The notes under the pieces were generated by a model. The model did not search any database. It was given only the letters and a program-made list of their open reading frames with translations, and was not told the origin of the DNA. Positions 36,332-44,795 of a stretch of 44,795 nt of DNA are shown here, one piece after another (within the stretch, counting starts at the first letter, position 1; each line of letters begins with the position of its first letter). Both the position numbers and the translations under genes were made by a program. The stretch is taken from positions 1 through 44,795 of IMG/VR virus record IMGVR_UViG_3300037042_004318, one strand, 5' to 3'. This DNA comes from a virus.

Positions 36332-36904
36332 TTATATTTTATAATTTAACAATGCAGTGTATGTATCACTTGAAATTGTATTCTTGTATCTTATTGCTAA
36401 GTCTATCAGTTGTTGTTCTTTTTCTCTTTTATAACACTGCACAGCTTCTATTATTGTTGAGAAAATTCCTTTATATGTAGATATCTTTCCCACTTTAATA
36501 TGAGTAACAAATCTGTTGTGATGTTTATATACACCTAAGGGAAGTTCTCTTTTATTCATGGGTTTTATAAGTGCAAGATTAATTTCCTGGGGCACAAAAC
36601 AACAAGTTTTAGGAGAGTACACTTTATTATCTTTTACTAATAGATCCTTATCTAATTGATAAGTTTCTATATAATTCTCCCCAAACCATTTAGCAAAATT
36701 CTGAAAGTTGTGCCATTCTTGTATAACTTCACACTCTTTATAAGAAGGATGTCTCAAATGAAGTTTATCATCATAACATCTTTGAAGCATTGCACACCAT
36801 GTGTCATATTCTTTAGTATGATTGCTTCTATTTCTAGATTTATAATTTCCTACTCCTATAAAACCAATCCCATATATTTTTTCAGTTGACCCTGCTTTTC
36901 TCAT
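36332..36904 (-). CDS. Free-standing homing-endonuclease-like protein (HNH/AP2 type), 190 aa
   Basis: The pattern EYDTWCAMLQRCYDD, PSYKECEVIQEWHNFQNFAK, YQLDKDLLVKDN and YSPKTCCFVPQEIN is one I know from phage HNH-like proteins that carry AP2/NUMOD DNA-binding parts. The HNH catalytic His-Asn-His is not clear; the C-terminal part LPLGVYKHHNRFVTHIKVGK, TYKGIFSTIIEAV fits an AP2-like DNA-binding domain. The ATG overlaps the terminase stop by one base (TAATG) and the portal starts 6 bases later, so the gene sits inside the packaging operon without disrupting it. Probably a mobile intruder; it may cut DNA, or only bind it. Confidence 0.8.
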   Translation of the reverse strand: MRKAGSTEKIYGIGFIGVGNYKSRNRSNHTKEYDTWCAMLQRCYDDKLHLRHPSYKECEVIQEWHNFQNFAKWFGENYIETYQLDKDLLVKDNKVYSPKTCCFVPQEINLALIKPMNKRELPLGVYKHHNRFVTHIKVGKISTYKGIFSTIIEAVQCYKREKEQQLIDLAIRYKNTISSDTYTALLNYKI

Positions 36905-39900
36905 TATATAAATAATTTATTTTTTTTTCTGTTAAACATATTTCTACCTCCTGGAAACAGTGTTGGGTTTGCTCTCTTTCTAAAAAGAGCATTTATTCTT
37001 TCATCTCCTGCTCCTCCTACTCTTCCCATAATAGGATCCATTTTTATTGCCTGAGCTATTGCTAATTCTGCAGCAACAATCCTGTCAAAGTTTCCTGTAT
37101 TATTATATTGTATAGTTTCTTCTAAAAGAACAGGATCCAGTATTCTGTTTACACCTACTATCTCCTTAATCAACTTTCCATCCTCATCAGTTTCTGTATA
37201 AACTATCTCCTCCATATAGTGCTTATAACAGTTGTGAAGGTAATCAATTATTTTCTGTGCAGACCTATGTACACCATATTCTCTTTTCACTGTTGTATTT
37301 GGTACTATTTCCAAGAGCCATTGTGGCTGTTTTTCAAGATAGTGAGCATCTCCCTTTGCTTTCATATATTCTATAAAGGATATATCATCATTCTCACAAA
37401 GGGTGCGAGCATTGTAATATTTAATTAAAAGTCTTGCCTGTTCTTCCCAAGTATCCTTCTTTGCTGGTCTTGCACAATAACTTGCAACAAACATATCCTG
37501 ATACTTCTCACTTGTAATATCATGCATTCTTTTGTATATATATACACTTCCAAGTGAAGAACTATAAGCAGATTGTCCTTGTCTGTAAGGGTCAACTCCT
37601 GCAACATAAAGTCCATAAGGAGGATTTTCTACAGGAAATTCATATATCACTATAGGAGCATCTTTATCATCTGTTGCCCTTAAAGGATAATTTGTAATAG
37701 GTAGTTTATCTGTGAATTCATGAGAGATTCTTCCCTCATTATTATAAAGAATAACAGGAATACCTGTTCTCTCCTGATTTAATAATTTAATCTTTTGTCT
37801 CTTGGCAGCTTCAATATCAAATATATTTGTATCCTCATTAAGAAATATATCATCCACCTTAATAGGATAATACATTTTCTCCTTTAAATAAGCAATCCTG
37901 TCTCCTGCTTTCCTTGTCCTATCAAGATTATCCTGTGTAATCTTCATAGCCTTATGTAAATTTGAAACAAGCATTGGCACTTTATGCAAACCACTTGTAA
38001 CAGGAGCTTCTAAAAACTTGCCTAATGTAGAAGGTTCTTTAGCTTCCATCCTATACTTATAGGACATAAATAAGCCATGTACCCTTTTCTCATCATCTTC
38101 GTTATTATAAGTAAGAAAGTTAAAATTGTCTACATCAAACATTAAACTCTTAGCATCCTGAAACTTACTCATATCACCACCTGTATTATGTGTAATAATA
38201 CCGTTAGCAATATAAGTATTTGAAATTCCTGCTGTTAAATTATAAACAGGTTTCTTTCCTATTTTTTCTATTGATACTATTTTTTCAAATCGTATTCCTA
38301 CTGTTTCCTCTGGTATTTTATTCTTTCTATTCTCTAACAGAATAATTGTCTTTTCAAGTTTTTCTTGCTTATAACCTAAGAAAAAAGTAATTTGACTATG
38401 AAATTTTTGTATGCTTTTCCTGTCAATTACATTAAGTCTATAATACCCATTTTTATCTTTTACATTTTTTAGCTTTGGTTTATGAAAAGTTATATTACTG
38501 TGAATTCCTATTTTTTGTAATAATAACTTTACCTCTAAAAGAATATTTTTATGAGCAGCAGATAAATAAATACAAGGAGGGGTTTTTATATTATGACTAA
38601 TACTGCCATCTGTATCAAATAACCCACCAAGTAATTCACAAATATCATGTTTTTGATATGAATGAATATATAATGGTAGTGTTTTTTTATCTTTAGTTTG
38701 TCCATAAATTCCATGTGCTCTTAATATTGGACATATTTCTTTTATTCTTGTTTCTCTGTATTCTTTCCCATCTTTAGTTATATGACTTCTTTCAATAACT
38801 GTATTAAAATTATTTGTAATATAGTTATTTATCTCCTCATCACAATTAGACATTATAGGAGTTTTATCTTTTCCATAAGAACCATCTCCAATAAGCCAAC
38901 CTATCAAACGAGGTTCCCACATTCTATTTTCTCCAAAAATAGGAACTTCTTCTATTAATCCTATTTGATTTCCTATTTTTAAATCTTGTGTTTCCTTAAA
39001 ATACATCTTTCGGTAGCCTTTTCTTTTTCCTGTGGAAATAGGAACCATATATCTCTCATCTCTTGACCTGTATAAAATAGGATGATTATAACTACATTCA
39101 AGTACAGTTCCTTTATGTGTTTCTATCCGATAACATTCCACTTCTTTTGGTGGTTGCCAATATGTAATTGTTTCCTTTGAAAAAGAACCATTACTATATC
39201 CTATAATACCCTCTTCAGGAATTACATTTTCAATATTAATTAAGTCTCCTTTATTATTCCATACTTTTGTTCCTGCACAAACACACCCCACTAATAATGG
39301 AGAACATCCCCATCCATAAGGAGTGGTAAATCCAGGAATAGCAGCCTGAAGAGCTCTTAAATAATTACCTTTCCCTATTTCATCAATAATCAGTTTCCTT
39401 GGTTTTGTTCCTGCAATAGCTTCCTCATTATTTCCTTCATCAAGATTCCTAATAAGAATCTGAGAGAATGGTATTCTTTCTCCTGCTCTTGTCTTAATTC
39501 CCAATGTCACCTGATTCTTCCAATTATCCTCAACTCTTTGCCATCTCCAGGCTTCAGGAATGAAATTTAATCCCTTATCAAGCTTATCTGTAATCAATTT
39601 TATATCAGGGCTATTTAAGCCTGCAATTACATTCTGTGAATTCTCATCAAATGTAGCTCCCCATCCAATATAACTTGCCTCAAGCACTGATTTACCAAAC
39701 CTTCTTATTCCTAATATTACAAGACCCTTCTGTTCCTCATGAGCCCTGTGTATTTCATTTGTCACTATCCACTCATTATCCCTAAGAAGTGGTGTGGCAT
39801 ATTTCTGATTCACTCTATTTCTATCATCTATAATATCCACCTCTGTATGCCAGAAGTTTAAATGCCAATATAAAAAAGGATTAATAAATGTACCATTCAT

Positions 39901-40026
39901 CATAGCACCATTCAAACAAAACTCTTTGTGATATTCAAAGAACTTTATATACTCCTCTGACTCTTTATCAGGAATACTCTTCTGATTAATATACCAATCA
40001 GAATAATCTATACTCTGTATTTTCAT
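36904..40026 (-). CDS. terL: Terminase large subunit with in-frame intein, 1040 aa precursor
   Basis: Walker A is GIRRFGKS (residues 106-113) and Walker B is LIIDE (212-216). The chain then enters an intein at Cys248 and leaves it at Asn614. Joining the exteins gives SPLLVG-TGGDMSKF, so the GTGGDM sequence typical of crAss-like terminases is rebuilt. The C-terminal nuclease part includes YVAGVDPYRQGQ (first acidic ligand), CENDDISFIEYM and FDRIVAAELAIA. Mature protein would be 673 residues. The start overlaps the upstream small gene by 4 bases (ATGA). It packages DNA through the portal, using ATP and cutting the concatemer. Confidence 0.96.
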   Translation of the reverse strand: MKIQSIDYSDWYINQKSIPDKESEEYIKFFEYHKEFCLNGAMMNGTFINPFLYWHLNFWHTEVDIIDDRNRVNQKYATPLLRDNEWIVTNEIHRAHEEQKGLVILGIRRFGKSVLEASYIGWGATFDENSQNVIAGLNSPDIKLITDKLDKGLNFIPEAWRWQRVEDNWKNQVTLGIKTRAGERIPFSQILIRNLDEGNNEEAIAGTKPRKLIIDEIGKGNYLRALQAAIPGFTTPYGWGCSPLLVGCVCAGTKVWNNKGDLINIENVIPEEGIIGYSNGSFSKETITYWQPPKEVECYRIETHKGTVLECSYNHPILYRSRDERYMVPISTGKRKGYRKMYFKETQDLKIGNQIGLIEEVPIFGENRMWEPRLIGWLIGDGSYGKDKTPIMSNCDEEINNYITNNFNTVIERSHITKDGKEYRETRIKEICPILRAHGIYGQTKDKKTLPLYIHSYQKHDICELLGGLFDTDGSISHNIKTPPCIYLSAAHKNILLEVKLLLQKIGIHSNITFHKPKLKNVKDKNGYYRLNVIDRKSIQKFHSQITFFLGYKQEKLEKTIILLENRKNKIPEETVGIRFEKIVSIEKIGKKPVYNLTAGISNTYIANGIITHNTGGDMSKFQDAKSLMFDVDNFNFLTYNNEDDEKRVHGLFMSYKYRMEAKEPSTLGKFLEAPVTSGLHKVPMLVSNLHKAMKITQDNLDRTRKAGDRIAYLKEKMYYPIKVDDIFLNEDTNIFDIEAAKRQKIKLLNQERTGIPVILYNNEGRISHEFTDKLPITNYPLRATDDKDAPIVIYEFPVENPPYGLYVAGVDPYRQGQSAYSSSLGSVYIYKRMHDITSEKYQDMFVASYCARPAKKDTWEEQARLLIKYYNARTLCENDDISFIEYMKAKGDAHYLEKQPQWLLEIVPNTTVKREYGVHRSAQKIIDYLHNCYKHYMEEIVYTETDEDGKLIKEIVGVNRILDPVLLEETIQYNNTGNFDRIVAAELAIAQAIKMDPIMGRVGGAGDERINALFRKRANPTLFPGGRNMFNRKKNKLFI
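38185..39285 (-). mobile_element. LAGLIDADG intein in terminase, 367 aa
   Basis: It starts CVCAGTKVW (block A, with the block-typical Thr at position 6) and ends GIITHN before Thr+1. Block B is LECSYNHPI. Both homing-endonuclease motifs are present: LIGWLIGDGS at intein residues 127-136 with Asp134, and LLGGLFDTDG at 218-227 with Asp226. Block G is YNLTAGISNTYIANG. All splicing residues (Cys1, block B His, penultimate His, terminal Asn, Thr+1) are in place, so splicing and homing both look intact. The insertion point lies in the conserved GTGGD sequence soon after Walker B. Confidence 0.95.
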
Positions 40027-41032: not shown

Positions 41033-41369
41033 GTAAAAAGTTTTTTACTCTCTCCTCATCAATAAGTGTTTCCTTATACCTCACTTCTCCCATCTTCTGT
41101 TTCTGGAGATCATCAGACAACATCCATTTAGAATACAGATTTCTTTGATTTTCATATTTCTTCATTCTCATGTTAGCCCTTGTAGCATTGAAAAAGAACT
41201 TACCAAATCCAGACATCTCAATCGTATTACACGTTTTCATAGCATTGAGAATACTCTTAAACTGATGATCAATAACAGAAATAATAACCTTCTCTGGCAA
41301 AGCCAAATCAACCACAAGCTTCTTTGCAACCAAATGCTTAATAAGCATCCTGCTATTATTTTCCTTCAT
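41010..41369 (-). CDS. IHF/HU-like DNA-binding protein, 119 aa
   Basis: Residues 9-60 fit HU/IHF: a helical start (LIKHLVAKKLVVDLALPEKV, IISVIDHQFKSILNAMKTCN), then TIEMSGFGKFFFNATRANMR, where SGFGKF matches the PGFGTF turn of the family. The long beta arm is short or replaced by a basic helical C-terminus (RMKKYENQRNLYSKWML). It overlaps its upstream neighbour by 14 bases and lies in the terminase region, away from the structural IHF-like gene. It may bend DNA for packaging, or be a second ring protein. Confidence 0.8.
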   Translation of the reverse strand: MKENNSRMLIKHLVAKKLVVDLALPEKVIISVIDHQFKSILNAMKTCNTIEMSGFGKFFFNATRANMRMKKYENQRNLYSKWMLSDDLQKQKMGEVRYKETLIDEERVKNFLHEHKKDI

Positions 41370-41697
41370 GTGTCAATTTTATTTGTAAAATCAACTCTTT
41401 AGAAAAATCCATAACAATAAGAGGAATAATTTTCACCTTCCCTTTCTCCTTAATAAAAATTCCCATCTTCTTAAGCTTGGAAATAATATTATTAATCGTA
41501 GCACTCGTTGTGTTATACTTCCTGCAAAACTCCTCTCTGACATTAGCATTGGAAATATTTCCCTTAACAGCTGTAAAGGCAACCAATTGTATTTCCCTAT
41601 TGGTTAATTGCAAGCCATTAATCGCTGAGAGAATAGCATAATACTTCTCAGCCAATTCAAAATCATCTATAAGGACAGATCTAAAATTTTGATTCAT
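41356..41697 (-). CDS. Winged-helix protein, 113 aa, first gene of the packaging operon
   Basis: The frame is open from 41817, but ATG at 41697 (MNQNFRSVLIDDFELAEKYY) is chosen: the upstream extension encodes low-complexity sequence over a poly-A/T tract and would leave no promoter space. Residues about 30-80 form an HTH (LTNREIQLVAFTAVKGNISN, VREEFCRKYNTTSATINNII, SKLKKMGIFIKEKGKVKIIP) with a wing-like end. It may regulate the late operon it heads, or be a structural or packaging protein with this fold. A weak TAnnTTTG-type box lies 23-30 bases upstream. Confidence 0.72.
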   Translation of the reverse strand: MNQNFRSVLIDDFELAEKYYAILSAINGLQLTNREIQLVAFTAVKGNISNANVREEFCRKYNTTSATINNIISKLKKMGIFIKEKGKVKIIPLIVMDFSKELILQIKLTHEGK

Positions 41698-41894
41698 ATG
41701 TAGTTTATAAATTCCATTACAAATATAACATAAAAGATTATAATTGCTTTCATGAAAAAAAAATTTTTTTATATTTTGCAAACCCTCTGTGTGTATGGGA
41801 AGAGATACTACTACCAATTACAACCCCACCTTTGATCTACGTGGTTGGGGGTATTCCCCATTTGATGTAACACGGCACATAAATACAAAAAAAC
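41698..41894. promoter_or_regulatory. Divergent control region between late operon and plus-strand genes
   Basis: This 197-bp gene-free stretch separates oppositely transcribed blocks. It holds TATATTTG on the minus strand (41727-41720, matches TAnnTTTG, but no -33 TTTG at 19 bases), a nine-A seven-T palindromic tract (41755-41770) that should be strongly bent, and a short hairpin TGGGG/CCCCA (41846-41860). Plus-strand promoter not identified. Confidence 0.5.
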
Positions 41895-42260
41895 ATGAAA
41901 GTTATTGAAGTAGTAGGTCGTGCAGTAATGGGCATCAAGAAAATTGGTGACAAACTGCCTTACAAACAATTCTTAGCAGACGGTGTGACTGAATCCAAAA
42001 TGTGGAAACAGGATTACTATCGCTATCGCTACAACGGCATAGTATTCATTGTGAATGCTAATGATGAATTCACCGAGCAGTATGATAGCAAGCAACTCTA
42101 CAGTGTCACGCTGATTCAGGACACTGATAATACATTGCAGTTTGATTTTGCAACAACCTTGCAACAGGAGATAGACTTCAAGCGTGGTGAGGTTACTCTT
42201 GAGTGCATCACGGTTGATAGCTTTAAGAGAGACTTCAGCAACGTTGCTGAGATAATTTAA
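41895..42260 (+). CDS. Protein of unknown function, 121 aa, GC-richer than neighbours
   Basis: ATG at 41895 to TAA at 42258. The protein MKVIEVVGRAVMGIKKIGDK continues with a Tyr/Arg-rich strand (WKQDYYRYRYNGIVFIVNAN) and ends EITFKRG-like charged sequence (DFKRGEVTLECITVDSFKRD). It looks like a small alpha/beta fold; I do not know the family. Its codons use visibly more G and C than nearby genes, which suggests recent transfer. It is followed at once by a UUCG-loop terminator, so it is a single-gene unit, the first gene of the plus-strand side. Confidence 0.8.
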   Translation: MKVIEVVGRAVMGIKKIGDKLPYKQFLADGVTESKMWKQDYYRYRYNGIVFIVNANDEFTEQYDSKQLYSVTLIQDTDNTLQFDFATTLQQEIDFKRGEVTLECITVDSFKRDFSNVAEII

Positions 42261-42277: not shown

Positions 42278-42857
42278 ACATATAGAAGGGTGGGATGTGA
42301 ATTCATTCGCATTGGGTGGGTTTATTTCATCCTTCTATATTTCTTCTTACACTATTATATATATAGTGTACATTTTCTCATTTATTGAGAATATACAATT
42401 TAATAGGAAATATACTCAATGTATTAATAGATAAGCTGTTAGTTGAATAAACTAATAGAATATTAACTATTGATATAATTTAGGTACGGGTATTTTTAAA
42501 TTTAGATTGTGAATTGGGTTAATATTCCATTAGCTATAGTGATACTAATGTGATTTAAAATGATGGTATATTACCTTTCCATCAGTCTTTATGATGTCAA
42601 AATTGCTCAAAATCCATGTAGAATGAGAAATCTATGGCATTTGTAGCAATATTCTTTTCTTTATATATATTCTTTTTCTTTATATAGGGAAAGATTATAT
42701 TTACCTCTTTAGGGGAATTGTTGAGTGCATAATAAAGAATTTCTTTATTAGGTCTTATATATTAGTGTATATAAGGTTTAGGTCTATTTTCATGTGAAAA
42801 TACGATGCTCAAACTCAAGGTTAGAGAGTGACTCATGTGTGGAACTCTTACAATATT
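42278..42857. other. Long gene-free regulatory region with several inverted repeats
   Basis: About 580 AT-rich bases with no convincing gene. Contents: a G-rich element (TATAGAAGG at 42281-42289 pairing CCTTCTATA at 42331-42339, with two GGGTGGG copies inside); a 7-bp hairpin ACACTAT/ATAGTGT (42349-42369); a perfect 21-bp inverted repeat, TAATAAAGAA, T, TTCTTTATTA (42730-42750); and an 18-bp one, TATTTTCA, TG, TGAAAATA (42785-42802). The last two lie in front of the next gene and look like operators. A replication origin is possible but nothing here proves it. Confidence 0.55.
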
Positions 42858-43313
42858 ATGGGAACAAGATTTTACGAACACAAGGTAATTGGTAAAAATT
42901 CAGTCGTAATGACTGAGAATTTAAAGAGAGTAATTAGCTTCTTTGATAGGAGCTATATGAAAGTTAATTCTACTCTTTCATATTTGGATGCATTAGCATC
43001 TTTAACCTCTGAGTATTTTGAGGTAGATTTATCTGGAGATCTTAATATGACCTACAGGTCAACAGCTAAGGTTGTTCCTGAACAGGAGTATGTTGAAACT
43101 ATTGTTGCTATTCTTAGCAAAGATGAACAATTGGGTTATATTGATGAGGAAGGAATATTATATCCTGAAGCAGAATTGTTTATATATACAGATTATCAAG
43201 TTGATGAAAACGGAGAGCCTATTTGGAACTCACAAGAAAAAATACCATATTATATGGTAGGAAATACTATTGTTAGCAAGTATTTCCCTTCAACAAGGGA
43301 ATATGCTTGTTAA
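42858..43313 (+). CDS. Hypothetical phage protein, 151 aa
   Basis: The frame is open from a GTG at 42828, but ATG at 42858 (MGTRFYEHKVIGKNSVVMTE) is the better start. The protein has a Tyr-rich acidic C-terminal half (EEGILYPEAELFIYTDYQVD, EKIPYYMVGNTIVSKYFPST). No family recognised. It is first after the long regulatory region with two inverted repeats, so it may be under repressor control; the reading frame and typical phage composition support a real gene. Confidence 0.7.
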   Translation: MGTRFYEHKVIGKNSVVMTENLKRVISFFDRSYMKVNSTLSYLDALASLTSEYFEVDLSGDLNMTYRSTAKVVPEQEYVETIVAILSKDEQLGYIDEEGILYPEAELFIYTDYQVDENGEPIWNSQEKIPYYMVGNTIVSKYFPSTREYAC

Positions 43314-43382
43314 TTTATTGCACCCAAGTCATGTGTTTAAACTGACTTAAACTCTTTGTTTTACATTTATATTCAAATTATT

Positions 43383-43697
43383 ATGGAATTTAAGAATTAC
43401 ACACCACATATCATTAATATGAATGATGGTAGAATGTTTGAGCCTATAGGATTGGCTAGAGTATCAGCTACATTTTCTGAAGTGTCACAAGATATGTGCT
43501 TTCAAAGATTTGGTAGTATTGTTGGATTACCAGAACCAAAAGATGATATATATTTGATTATATCATCTGTGGTGTTAGCTGCTAATAATGCAGCATTTGG
43601 TAAAAGGCTTGATTTAGTAGCACCTGCTACAGGTCATCCTGATTGTATCAGAAATAATGGACAGGTTGTATCTGTTCCTTGTTTTGTTAGAAATTAA
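43383..43697 (+). CDS. Conserved phage/bacterial protein of unknown function, 104 aa
   Basis: The frame is open from 43356, but ATG at 43383 (MEFKNYTPHIINMNDGRMFE) gives a recognisable start: N.TPH.IN....R.FEP.G.ARVS. The C-terminus DLVAPATGHPDCIRNNGQVV, SVPCFVRN also fits a small family I have seen in many phages and bacterial genomes. Its function is unknown to me. It lies 69 bases after the previous gene. Part of the plus-strand series of small, probably early, genes. Confidence 0.75.
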   Translation: MEFKNYTPHIINMNDGRMFEPIGLARVSATFSEVSQDMCFQRFGSIVGLPEPKDDIYLIISSVVLAANNAAFGKRLDLVAPATGHPDCIRNNGQVVSVPCFVRN

Positions 43698-43737
43698 TGT
43701 GTTTTATCCATTATAACAAGGATTATATAACACTATT

Positions 43738-43977
43738 ATGATGACAATTTTATCTCTTGAGGATATATTGAACACTTGCTATTCAGAGCAAGATGGTCAA
43801 TATTCATACACTCTTAGATTTAGTTCTATGGAGGAAAGATCTTTATGGTTGCTCTATTATGAGAACCTTTTAAGGGTTTATTGCACATTCAATTGTTTTA
43901 CCACTCAATCAATTATTGTTATTCATTACAGAGATGAATTGATAATGAAAGAGTTTAAAGAATGGAACAATGAATAG
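43738..43977 (+). CDS. Hypothetical phage protein, 79 aa
   Basis: Starts ATG ATG (43738 or 43741), MTILSLEDILNTCYSEQDGQ, with an aromatic-rich middle (RSLWLLYYENLLRVYCTFNC). Family not recognised. It lies 40 bases after the preceding gene and 36 bases before a truncated gene start. Confidence 0.6.
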   Translation: MMTILSLEDILNTCYSEQDGQYSYTLRFSSMEERSLWLLYYENLLRVYCTFNCFTTQSIIVIHYRDELIMKEFKEWNNE

Positions 43978-44013
43978 ATTATGCTATATTTCAATAATTT
44001 AATATTTAATTAT

Positions 44014-44058
44014 ATGAATTTAATTTATCAGATTGGAGAGAACTATTGGAAGTCTTAA
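44014..44058 (+). pseudogene. Truncated copy of the start of the 98-aa gene
   Basis: ATG at 44014 encodes MNLIYQIGENYWK, then Ser and a TAA made by the first CRISPR repeat. It matches the start of the gene at 44309 (36 of 38 bases). The leftover is an apparent duplicated 5' end cut off by the array. Confidence 0.8.
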
Positions 44059-44310
44059 TCCTTGTTTTACTGGATATTACTCGCTGATTTCTTGATCATT
44101 TAATTGTATGTCGGATTTTTCACTAGTCTTAATCCTTGTTTTACTGGATATTACTCGCTGATAAATGTGATAAAAGGAGCTACCTTCAATGCTTCTATTG
44201 TCTTAATCCTTGTTTTACTGGATATTACTCGCTGATCTGCACTGCAAAAGCAGTACGCATTCGAAATTGCCTAGTCTTAATCCTTGTTTTACTGGATATT
44301 ACTCGCTGAT
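44052..44310. CRISPR. CRISPR mini-array: four 37-bp repeats, three 37-bp spacers
   Basis: Repeats at 44052-44088, 44126-44162, 44200-44236 and 44274-44310 are identical. Each begins GTCTTAATCCTTG and ends ATTACTCGCTGAT. Spacers at 44089-44125, 44163-44199 and 44237-44273 are unrelated to each other and each exactly 37 bp, so the period is a constant 74. Each repeat can fold, TAATCC pairing GGATTA with one bulged A. No cas gene lies in the window. Direction of transcription is undetermined; the flanking genes are on the plus strand. Type of the matching system is not assigned. Confidence 0.93.
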
Positions 44311-44605
44311 GAATTTAATTTATCAGATAGGAAAGAACTATTGGAATAGTGATTCTGATGGTTGGCAACATTGGGTTGATCAAAAGGTGATTAGCTATCA
44401 TGCTACCCAAGAAGGTGCTCAAAAGCAGATTGAAGTTTTATTGGCTAAAGAACTAATAGATTCTCAAAATAGATTAGTACAACCTGATGCTGAATATATT
44501 AAGAGATGCGCTGATCAAGCTACAAGGAATTATCTTACCTTGGATGAAAATGGTGAAATTGATGAACCATTATACTATTGCAGAAGTATTGTTCTGTTAG
44601 ATTGA
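44309..44605 (+). CDS. Hypothetical phage protein, 98 aa, start codon shared with the CRISPR repeat
   Basis: ATG at 44309 uses the last two bases (AT) of repeat 4 plus the next G; MNLIYQIGKNYWNSDSDGWQ follows. The protein is acidic and helical (THATQEGAQ-type middle, then LIDSQNRLVQPDAEYIKRCA) with no known motif. The frame also extends upstream to 44210 through a repeat and a spacer, but that part is not real coding. The duplicated start upstream of the array (44014) supports this start. Upstream expression signals may have been changed by the array. Confidence 0.78.
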   Translation: MNLIYQIGKNYWNSDSDGWQHWVDQKVISYHATQEGAQKQIEVLLAKELIDSQNRLVQPDAEYIKRCADQATRNYLTLDENGEIDEPLYYCRSIVLLD

Positions 44606-44762
44606 TTAATAAGGTGCTACAAAATGTTATACCAAAGCTGAACATTATTAAATAATGTCGTACTTATGGTGGATAAACAGCCTTATTTATTGACTTACTT
44701 GGAGGTAATAAGAGTTCGATTCTCTTTATAGTCACATTTATTTATTTAAAACTTAGACAATT
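44606..44762 (+). other. Gene-free stretch with palindrome and T-arm-like fold
   Basis: It holds a 17-bp perfect inverted repeat ACATTATT, A, AATAATGT (44642-44658). It also holds a fold at 44691-44734: TGACT pairing AGTCA around a small hairpin (TAC/GTA) and a T-arm-like AAGAG, TTCGATT, CTCTT. A full tRNA could not be drawn. Confidence 0.45.
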
Positions 44763-44795
44763 ATGAAAGCAATTATTAGACAAAAATTTGATGAT
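44763..44795 (+). CDS. Start of a gene running off the right edge
   Basis: ATG at 44763 opens MKAIIRQKFDD to the window end with no stop. Eleven codons are too few to name; it is listed because the start follows a plausible spacer and fits the plus-strand series. Confidence 0.4.
   Translation, partial: MKAIIRQKFDD

Follow-up and report, generated by a model that had tools for sequence, protein, structure and literature searches.

A CRISPR array of four identical 37-bp repeats (GTCTTAATCCTTGTTTTACTGGATATTACTCGCTGAT) and three unrelated 37-bp spacers (S1 to S3), with a period of 74, occupies positions 44,052 to 44,310 of a phage record. A gene for a homologue of the ring nuclease Crn4 (formerly Unk_01) precedes it, and so does a degenerate, solitary repeat that belongs to the repeat family of the array. 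The array splits a phage gene at its start, and the first codons of this gene are found on both sides (Table 1).

Table 1. Features of the array locus (positions in the window)
Feature	Position	Strand	Remarks
Crn4 (formerly Unk_01) ring-nuclease homologue, candidate anti-type-III protein	43383..43697	+	E 1.1e-8; 4.6e-10
Solitary degenerate CRISPR repeat, same family as array (candidate RNA anti-CRISPR)	43705..43724	+	starts 8 nt past the Crn4 stop
Left copy (X): first 12 codons of the gene at 44309, ended by repeat 1 (MNLIYQIGENYWKS-stop)	44014..44051	+	36/38 identical to right copy
CRISPR repeat 1	44052..44088	- (crRNA strand)	CRISPR-DR7, 37.4 bits
Spacer S1, 37 bp	44089..44125	-	no target found
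CRISPR repeat 2	44126..44162	-	CRISPR-DR7
Spacer S2, 37 bp	44163..44199	-	no target found
CRISPR repeat 3	44200..44236	-	CRISPR-DR7
Spacer S3, 37 bp	44237..44273	-	no target found
CRISPR repeat 4	44274..44310	-	CRISPR-DR7
Right copy of the duplication, abutting repeat 4	44309..44346	+	last two repeat bases are part of the ATG
Phage gene split at its start by the array, 98 aa	44309..44605	+	no relatives found

Phage record and accessory region

The window, i.e. the whole stretch of DNA analyzed, is one linear IMG/VR record of 44,795 bases, and the placement of the array in a phage genome rests on this single record. The terminase large subunit, the portal and the major head protein match PHROG phage families in profile searches. 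The portal shares 25-26% identity over its length with crAss-like phages, including records of Bacteroides, Flavobacterium and Cellulophaga phages. The initial annotation as a crAss-like phage is upheld by the presence of the portal and terminase of this group. The statement that cas genes are absent agrees with a PADLOC scan of 10 proteins from the contig fragment, which revealed none.

The capsid gene has more than 599 relatives in IMG/VR, the best 80 showing 94-96% amino acid identity. The 39-42 kb part of the record is ~64-80% similar at the DNA level to these capsid-matched relatives. Among the plus-strand genes, only 41895-42260 has protein matches, weak ones in five loci, and the four plus-strand genes beyond it yielded none in related loci. 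Positions 42300-44795 form a variable accessory region, with plus-strand genes unmatched in related loci next to a well-conserved structural part. The array is located in this variable part.

Other genes of the record were noted in passing. The terminase large subunit gene (36904-40026, minus strand) is apparently split by an intein: terminase matches lie on both sides of an insert, residues ~286-616 match helicase, primase and recombinase profiles, and junctions of the Cys ... HN-Thr type occur in the translation. The adjoining gene (36332-36904, minus strand) encodes a 190-aa protein that by eye resembles phage homing endonucleases and has no Pfam match. A small protein with a winged-helix stretch (41356-41817, minus strand), kept in relatives, shows weak similarity to CARF/Csa3 regulators in their C-terminal part (E 2.5e-4). 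An assignment as CARF protein was rejected, because the match spans the winged-helix part only.

The array and its CRISPR family

Four exact and equally spaced 37-mers are no product of chance, and the array is real in the record, as had been annotated. A tandem repeat or a phage-wide element was rejected, since outside the array the record contains the repeat only as the element at 43,705. All four repeats match Rfam CRISPR-DR7 (RF01320) at 37.4 bits, just above the curated threshold of 37. The match lies on the minus strand, which is therefore taken as the crRNA strand; the tag would be AUUAAGAC. This strand opposes the direction of the surrounding phage genes. No leader is recognizable, the phage gene lying at both array ends, and over the last 2.6 kb the minus strand showed no promoter of the Bacteroidota type.

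The repeat has no exact match in IMG/VR or in GTDB genomes. Allowing up to three mismatches, it was found in none of 50 related records, and CRISPR arrays were found in none of 80 related loci (the best 80 of more than 599 capsid relatives). A degenerate DR7 core occurs at 61 genome loci, mostly in Methanosarcina, also in Atribacteria, Chitinophaga, Microscilla and others; the same core retrieved nothing from IMG/VR. The nearest Bacteroidota array found, in genome G170, has the repeat GTCAGAGCACCACATCCACTAAAACAAGGATTAAGAC, which differs from the phage repeat at 8 of 37 positions and is identical to it in the last 18 nt in crRNA sense. This array comprises ~90 repeats and adjoins type III-D genes for Cas6, Cas10d, Cas5 and Cas7. 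The locus also encodes two CARF nucleases, Csx20, Cas1, PrimPol and Cas2, and thus amounts to a complete type III-D system. Thus, of the search proposed initially in repeat collections and Bacteroidota genomes, a near relative with a full III-D locus was the yield, while an identical repeat was not obtained. A closer host repeat was found in none of 291 genomes of the order of G170. A Chitinophaga metagenome-assembled genome with a related repeat carries the same Cas1-PrimPol-Cas2 module and a CARF effector. In G170, a lone degenerate repeat (L161, G170:C8:482608-482635) is located 248 bp past the last unit of the long type III-D array.

Spacers S1 to S3 showed no match beyond chance to phages, plasmids or the 80 related loci. 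Searches of IMG/VR by coding-degenerate patterns, which mismatched protospacers could escape, gave no target either. The suggestion that the array supplies guides for inter-phage conflict is thus unsupported, the three spacers having no target in any of these collections. The identity of the repeats had further been read as a sign of active use; it gives no proof thereof. No leader is recognizable, and the crRNA strand opposes the neighboring genes. With no leader, no Bacteroidota-type promoter on the minus strand, opposed genes and guides that lack a known target, the array may be a recent passenger in the phage.

A Crn4 homologue and a solitary repeat

The product of 43383-43697 matches the PADLOC family 'Unk_01' (E 1.1e-8), and again in a profile search of 20 records (E 4.6e-10). 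Among these 20 (18 related phages, G170 and the present record) the homologue is unique to this record. Unk_01 has since been renamed Crn4; it is a ring nuclease found in type III-D CRISPR loci, and homologues in phages and plasmids are proposed anti-CRISPRs (PMC12830947). In an annotated phage collection, the single match was a protein of a Pararheinheimera phage, 46% identical to the product, with T-P-H, LPEP and a C-terminal FVR conserved. This homologue itself matches a solved Crn4b structure (9r7b, E 1.7e-4), while the 43383-43697 product gave no direct match in the PDB. The Pararheinheimera gene (L168:2001-2357, gp50 of phage vB_PsoM_KLER1-1) is annotated as hypothetical and is a Crn4 homologue; no CRISPR-like repeat was found near it.

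The alignment reveals a conserved Thr-x-His and an arginine (T7, H9 and R103), R103 being paired with Crn4 R112 by its near-C-terminal position. The N-terminal T-P-H and the near-C-terminal arginine agree with the published description of Crn4 (PMC12830947). The protein resembles Crn4 and Crn4b in the family profile, the T-P-H near the N terminus, the arginine near the C terminus, a length of ~100 aa and a III-D setting, which is here that of a related repeat. It differs in its low identity to the solved proteins, and a ring-nuclease activity is a candidate function (compare PMC12830947). A CRISPR array adjoining the phage Crn4 gene is present here, whereas none is described in the accessible portion of PMC12830947. 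A single-sequence fold of the protein was too poor for use (mean pLDDT 41.8). Crn4 was found in none of 149 genomes of the class of G170, in which the controls were equally empty.

The solitary repeat agrees with the array repeat in 19 of 21 bases, where shuffled sequences are expected to give 0.00 matches at up to three mismatches. In simulated windows, the best of the seventeen 21-mers of the repeat had at least three mismatches. The element scores an E value of 0.0018, which applies to this genome and one family, and it outscores everything in 49 related records. Well-matching positions number 20 of 37, with a score under the Rfam curated threshold and a degenerate, unconserved 3' tag. Of the two positions differing from the array repeats, one follows the DR7 consensus. 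An origin as stray copy of an array repeat was rejected on account of this base.

RNA anti-CRISPRs (Racr) are solitary repeat units, and a published racr is located 11 nt downstream of acrIC5 in one operon. The element at 43,705 shares with them the intergenic position, the single repeat-like unit and the location directly 3' of a candidate anti-CRISPR gene on the same strand (PMC10651486). By definition, a Racr should match most of the repeat at 90% identity or higher, with a SRUFinder bit score of 41.1; the 19/21 identity spans ~57% of the repeat, i.e. a partial match. In contrast to the published units, the element belongs to a type III family (PMC10651486), and it is a candidate inhibitor.

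An array accompanied by a counter-type-III context is well supported. With two putative anti-type-III elements lying no more than 700 bp from the array, a counter-defense locus native to the phage is supported. What hints most strongly at the host system is that one phage locus contains both a ring nuclease of III-D loci and a repeat whose family is linked to III-D through G170; the other DR7 arrays are mostly archaeal.

Flanking duplication and possible origins of the array

The array is flanked by a duplication of 36-38 bp with two mismatches. It ends exactly at the outer repeats, bar two bases common to the repeat end and the gene start, and the longest identical run between the copies is 20 bases. 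A whole-repeat insert flanked by spacer-sized pieces of a phage gene is expected if one outer copy is a spacer, X, and the other its protospacer. Read on the crRNA strand, X is antisense to the mRNA of the 44309 gene, which type III targeting requires, and the bases that follow the protospacer leave the repeat tag unextended (TAGTGATT vs GTCTTAAT). In a host, X would therefore be competent as a spacer of a type III system. A protospacer for X was not found elsewhere, and host spacers of three DR7 arrays had no match in this phage clade closer than 9 mismatches, about the level of the shuffled control. Entry of a host array fragment through a spacer against this gene would produce such a duplication, whether the event was a recombination or an assembly chimera.

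In the explanation preferred, held with somewhat less than even confidence, a crAss-like phage possesses a counter-type-III locus into which a fragment of a host CRISPR array has been taken. As we infer it, the join is real, recombination provided the route, and transcription and every function would be as follows. The Crn4 homologue would form the protein part, degrading cyclic oligoadenylates, the alarm signals of type III systems. The solitary repeat, with the same transcript direction, would form the RNA part and occupy Cas6, Cas7-like subunits or the complex of the host. The array fragment of four repeats and three spacers would most likely derive from a host type III array in which X was a fourth spacer, directed against the phage gene at 44309. 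A circle with four repeats and the four spacers X, S1, S2 and S3 could have been excised from the host array through recombination between its repeats. Its insertion by one crossover between X and the protospacer would yield gene-start/R-S1-R-S2-R-S3-R/gene-start exactly. Against recombination stands the homologous stretch left of the first mismatch, which at only 20 nt is short for RecA. Once in the phage, the array could give decoy repeats and three guides to host type III complexes. A more specific version, in which a locus already equipped with a cyclic-oligoadenylate nuclease and an RNA decoy captured part of an array targeting it, through spacer and protospacer, and now uses the repeats and guides against host type III systems or other phages, is doubtful.

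An assembly chimera is rather unlikely, although several observations fit it. In this case a bacterial array would hold spacers against the phage gene, the assembler would have crossed from phage to array at a spacer and then back, and all that the record would show is the targeting of this phage by a host type III array. The spacer-sized duplication with exact ends at the repeats, the split gene and the absence of the array from all relatives (80 related loci; the repeat also being absent from 50 related records) are in accordance with it, and with a Crn4 homologue present, a host with a type III system is implied in any case. However, the copies differ at two sites, and their longest shared run of 20 identical bases falls below 21, the smallest k that assemblers commonly use. 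A single spacer is thus insufficient for a chimera; two different spacers against the same site, flanking S1 to S3, or strain variants would be required, which lowers this reading without removing it. The adjoining solitary repeat and Crn4 homologue would moreover be independent coincidences. On balance, the array is likely to be physically present in the phage and the join real (about two in three, as a judgement).

Two further origins place the array in the phage by other means. Host Cas1-Cas2 could have inserted a repeat-bearing fragment off target, duplicating 36-37 bp, with spacers added later. The duplication is as long as a repeat (37), as expected from such an integration, and the nearest Bacteroidota system has Cas1, Cas2 and PrimPol; but the 259-bp insert far exceeds prespacer length, a leader is lacking, and the two copies have already diverged while the four repeats are identical, all of which renders this route improbable. 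Slightly less improbable, yet well behind the chimera, is an old mini-array dedicated to the exclusion of related phages with the help of host Cas proteins, like those of the archaeal portogloboviruses. The arrays of SPV1 and SPV2 share its anatomy: they are short and without cas genes (here, none in the 10 proteins scanned), with a targeted site nearby and a solitary repeat in the viral genome (PMC6858448). Those arrays possess host-like leaders and spacers against relatives (PMC6858448), whereas here no leader is recognizable and no spacer target was found in the 80 related loci or, by coding-degenerate patterns, in IMG/VR. Unlike them, the present array splits a gene, has a flanking duplication and adjoins a Crn4 homologue. 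The arrays of huge phages are likewise compact and phage-borne, some without cas genes and with host-like repeats; they occur in other phage groups, and a flanking duplication, present here, is not described in the available part of the source (PMC7162821).

If the join is an artefact, the record still points to a host type III array targeting this phage, and it warns that arrays on viral contigs can arise via spacer-protospacer matches. If the capture of a host array fragment is true, the flanking duplication would be the footprint of one route by which viruses obtain CRISPR arrays, with host immune memory entering at the site that it targets. The locus would then combine an enzyme against type III signaling, a repeat mimic and a mini-array, bringing protein and RNA counter-measures against one CRISPR type together in one place.
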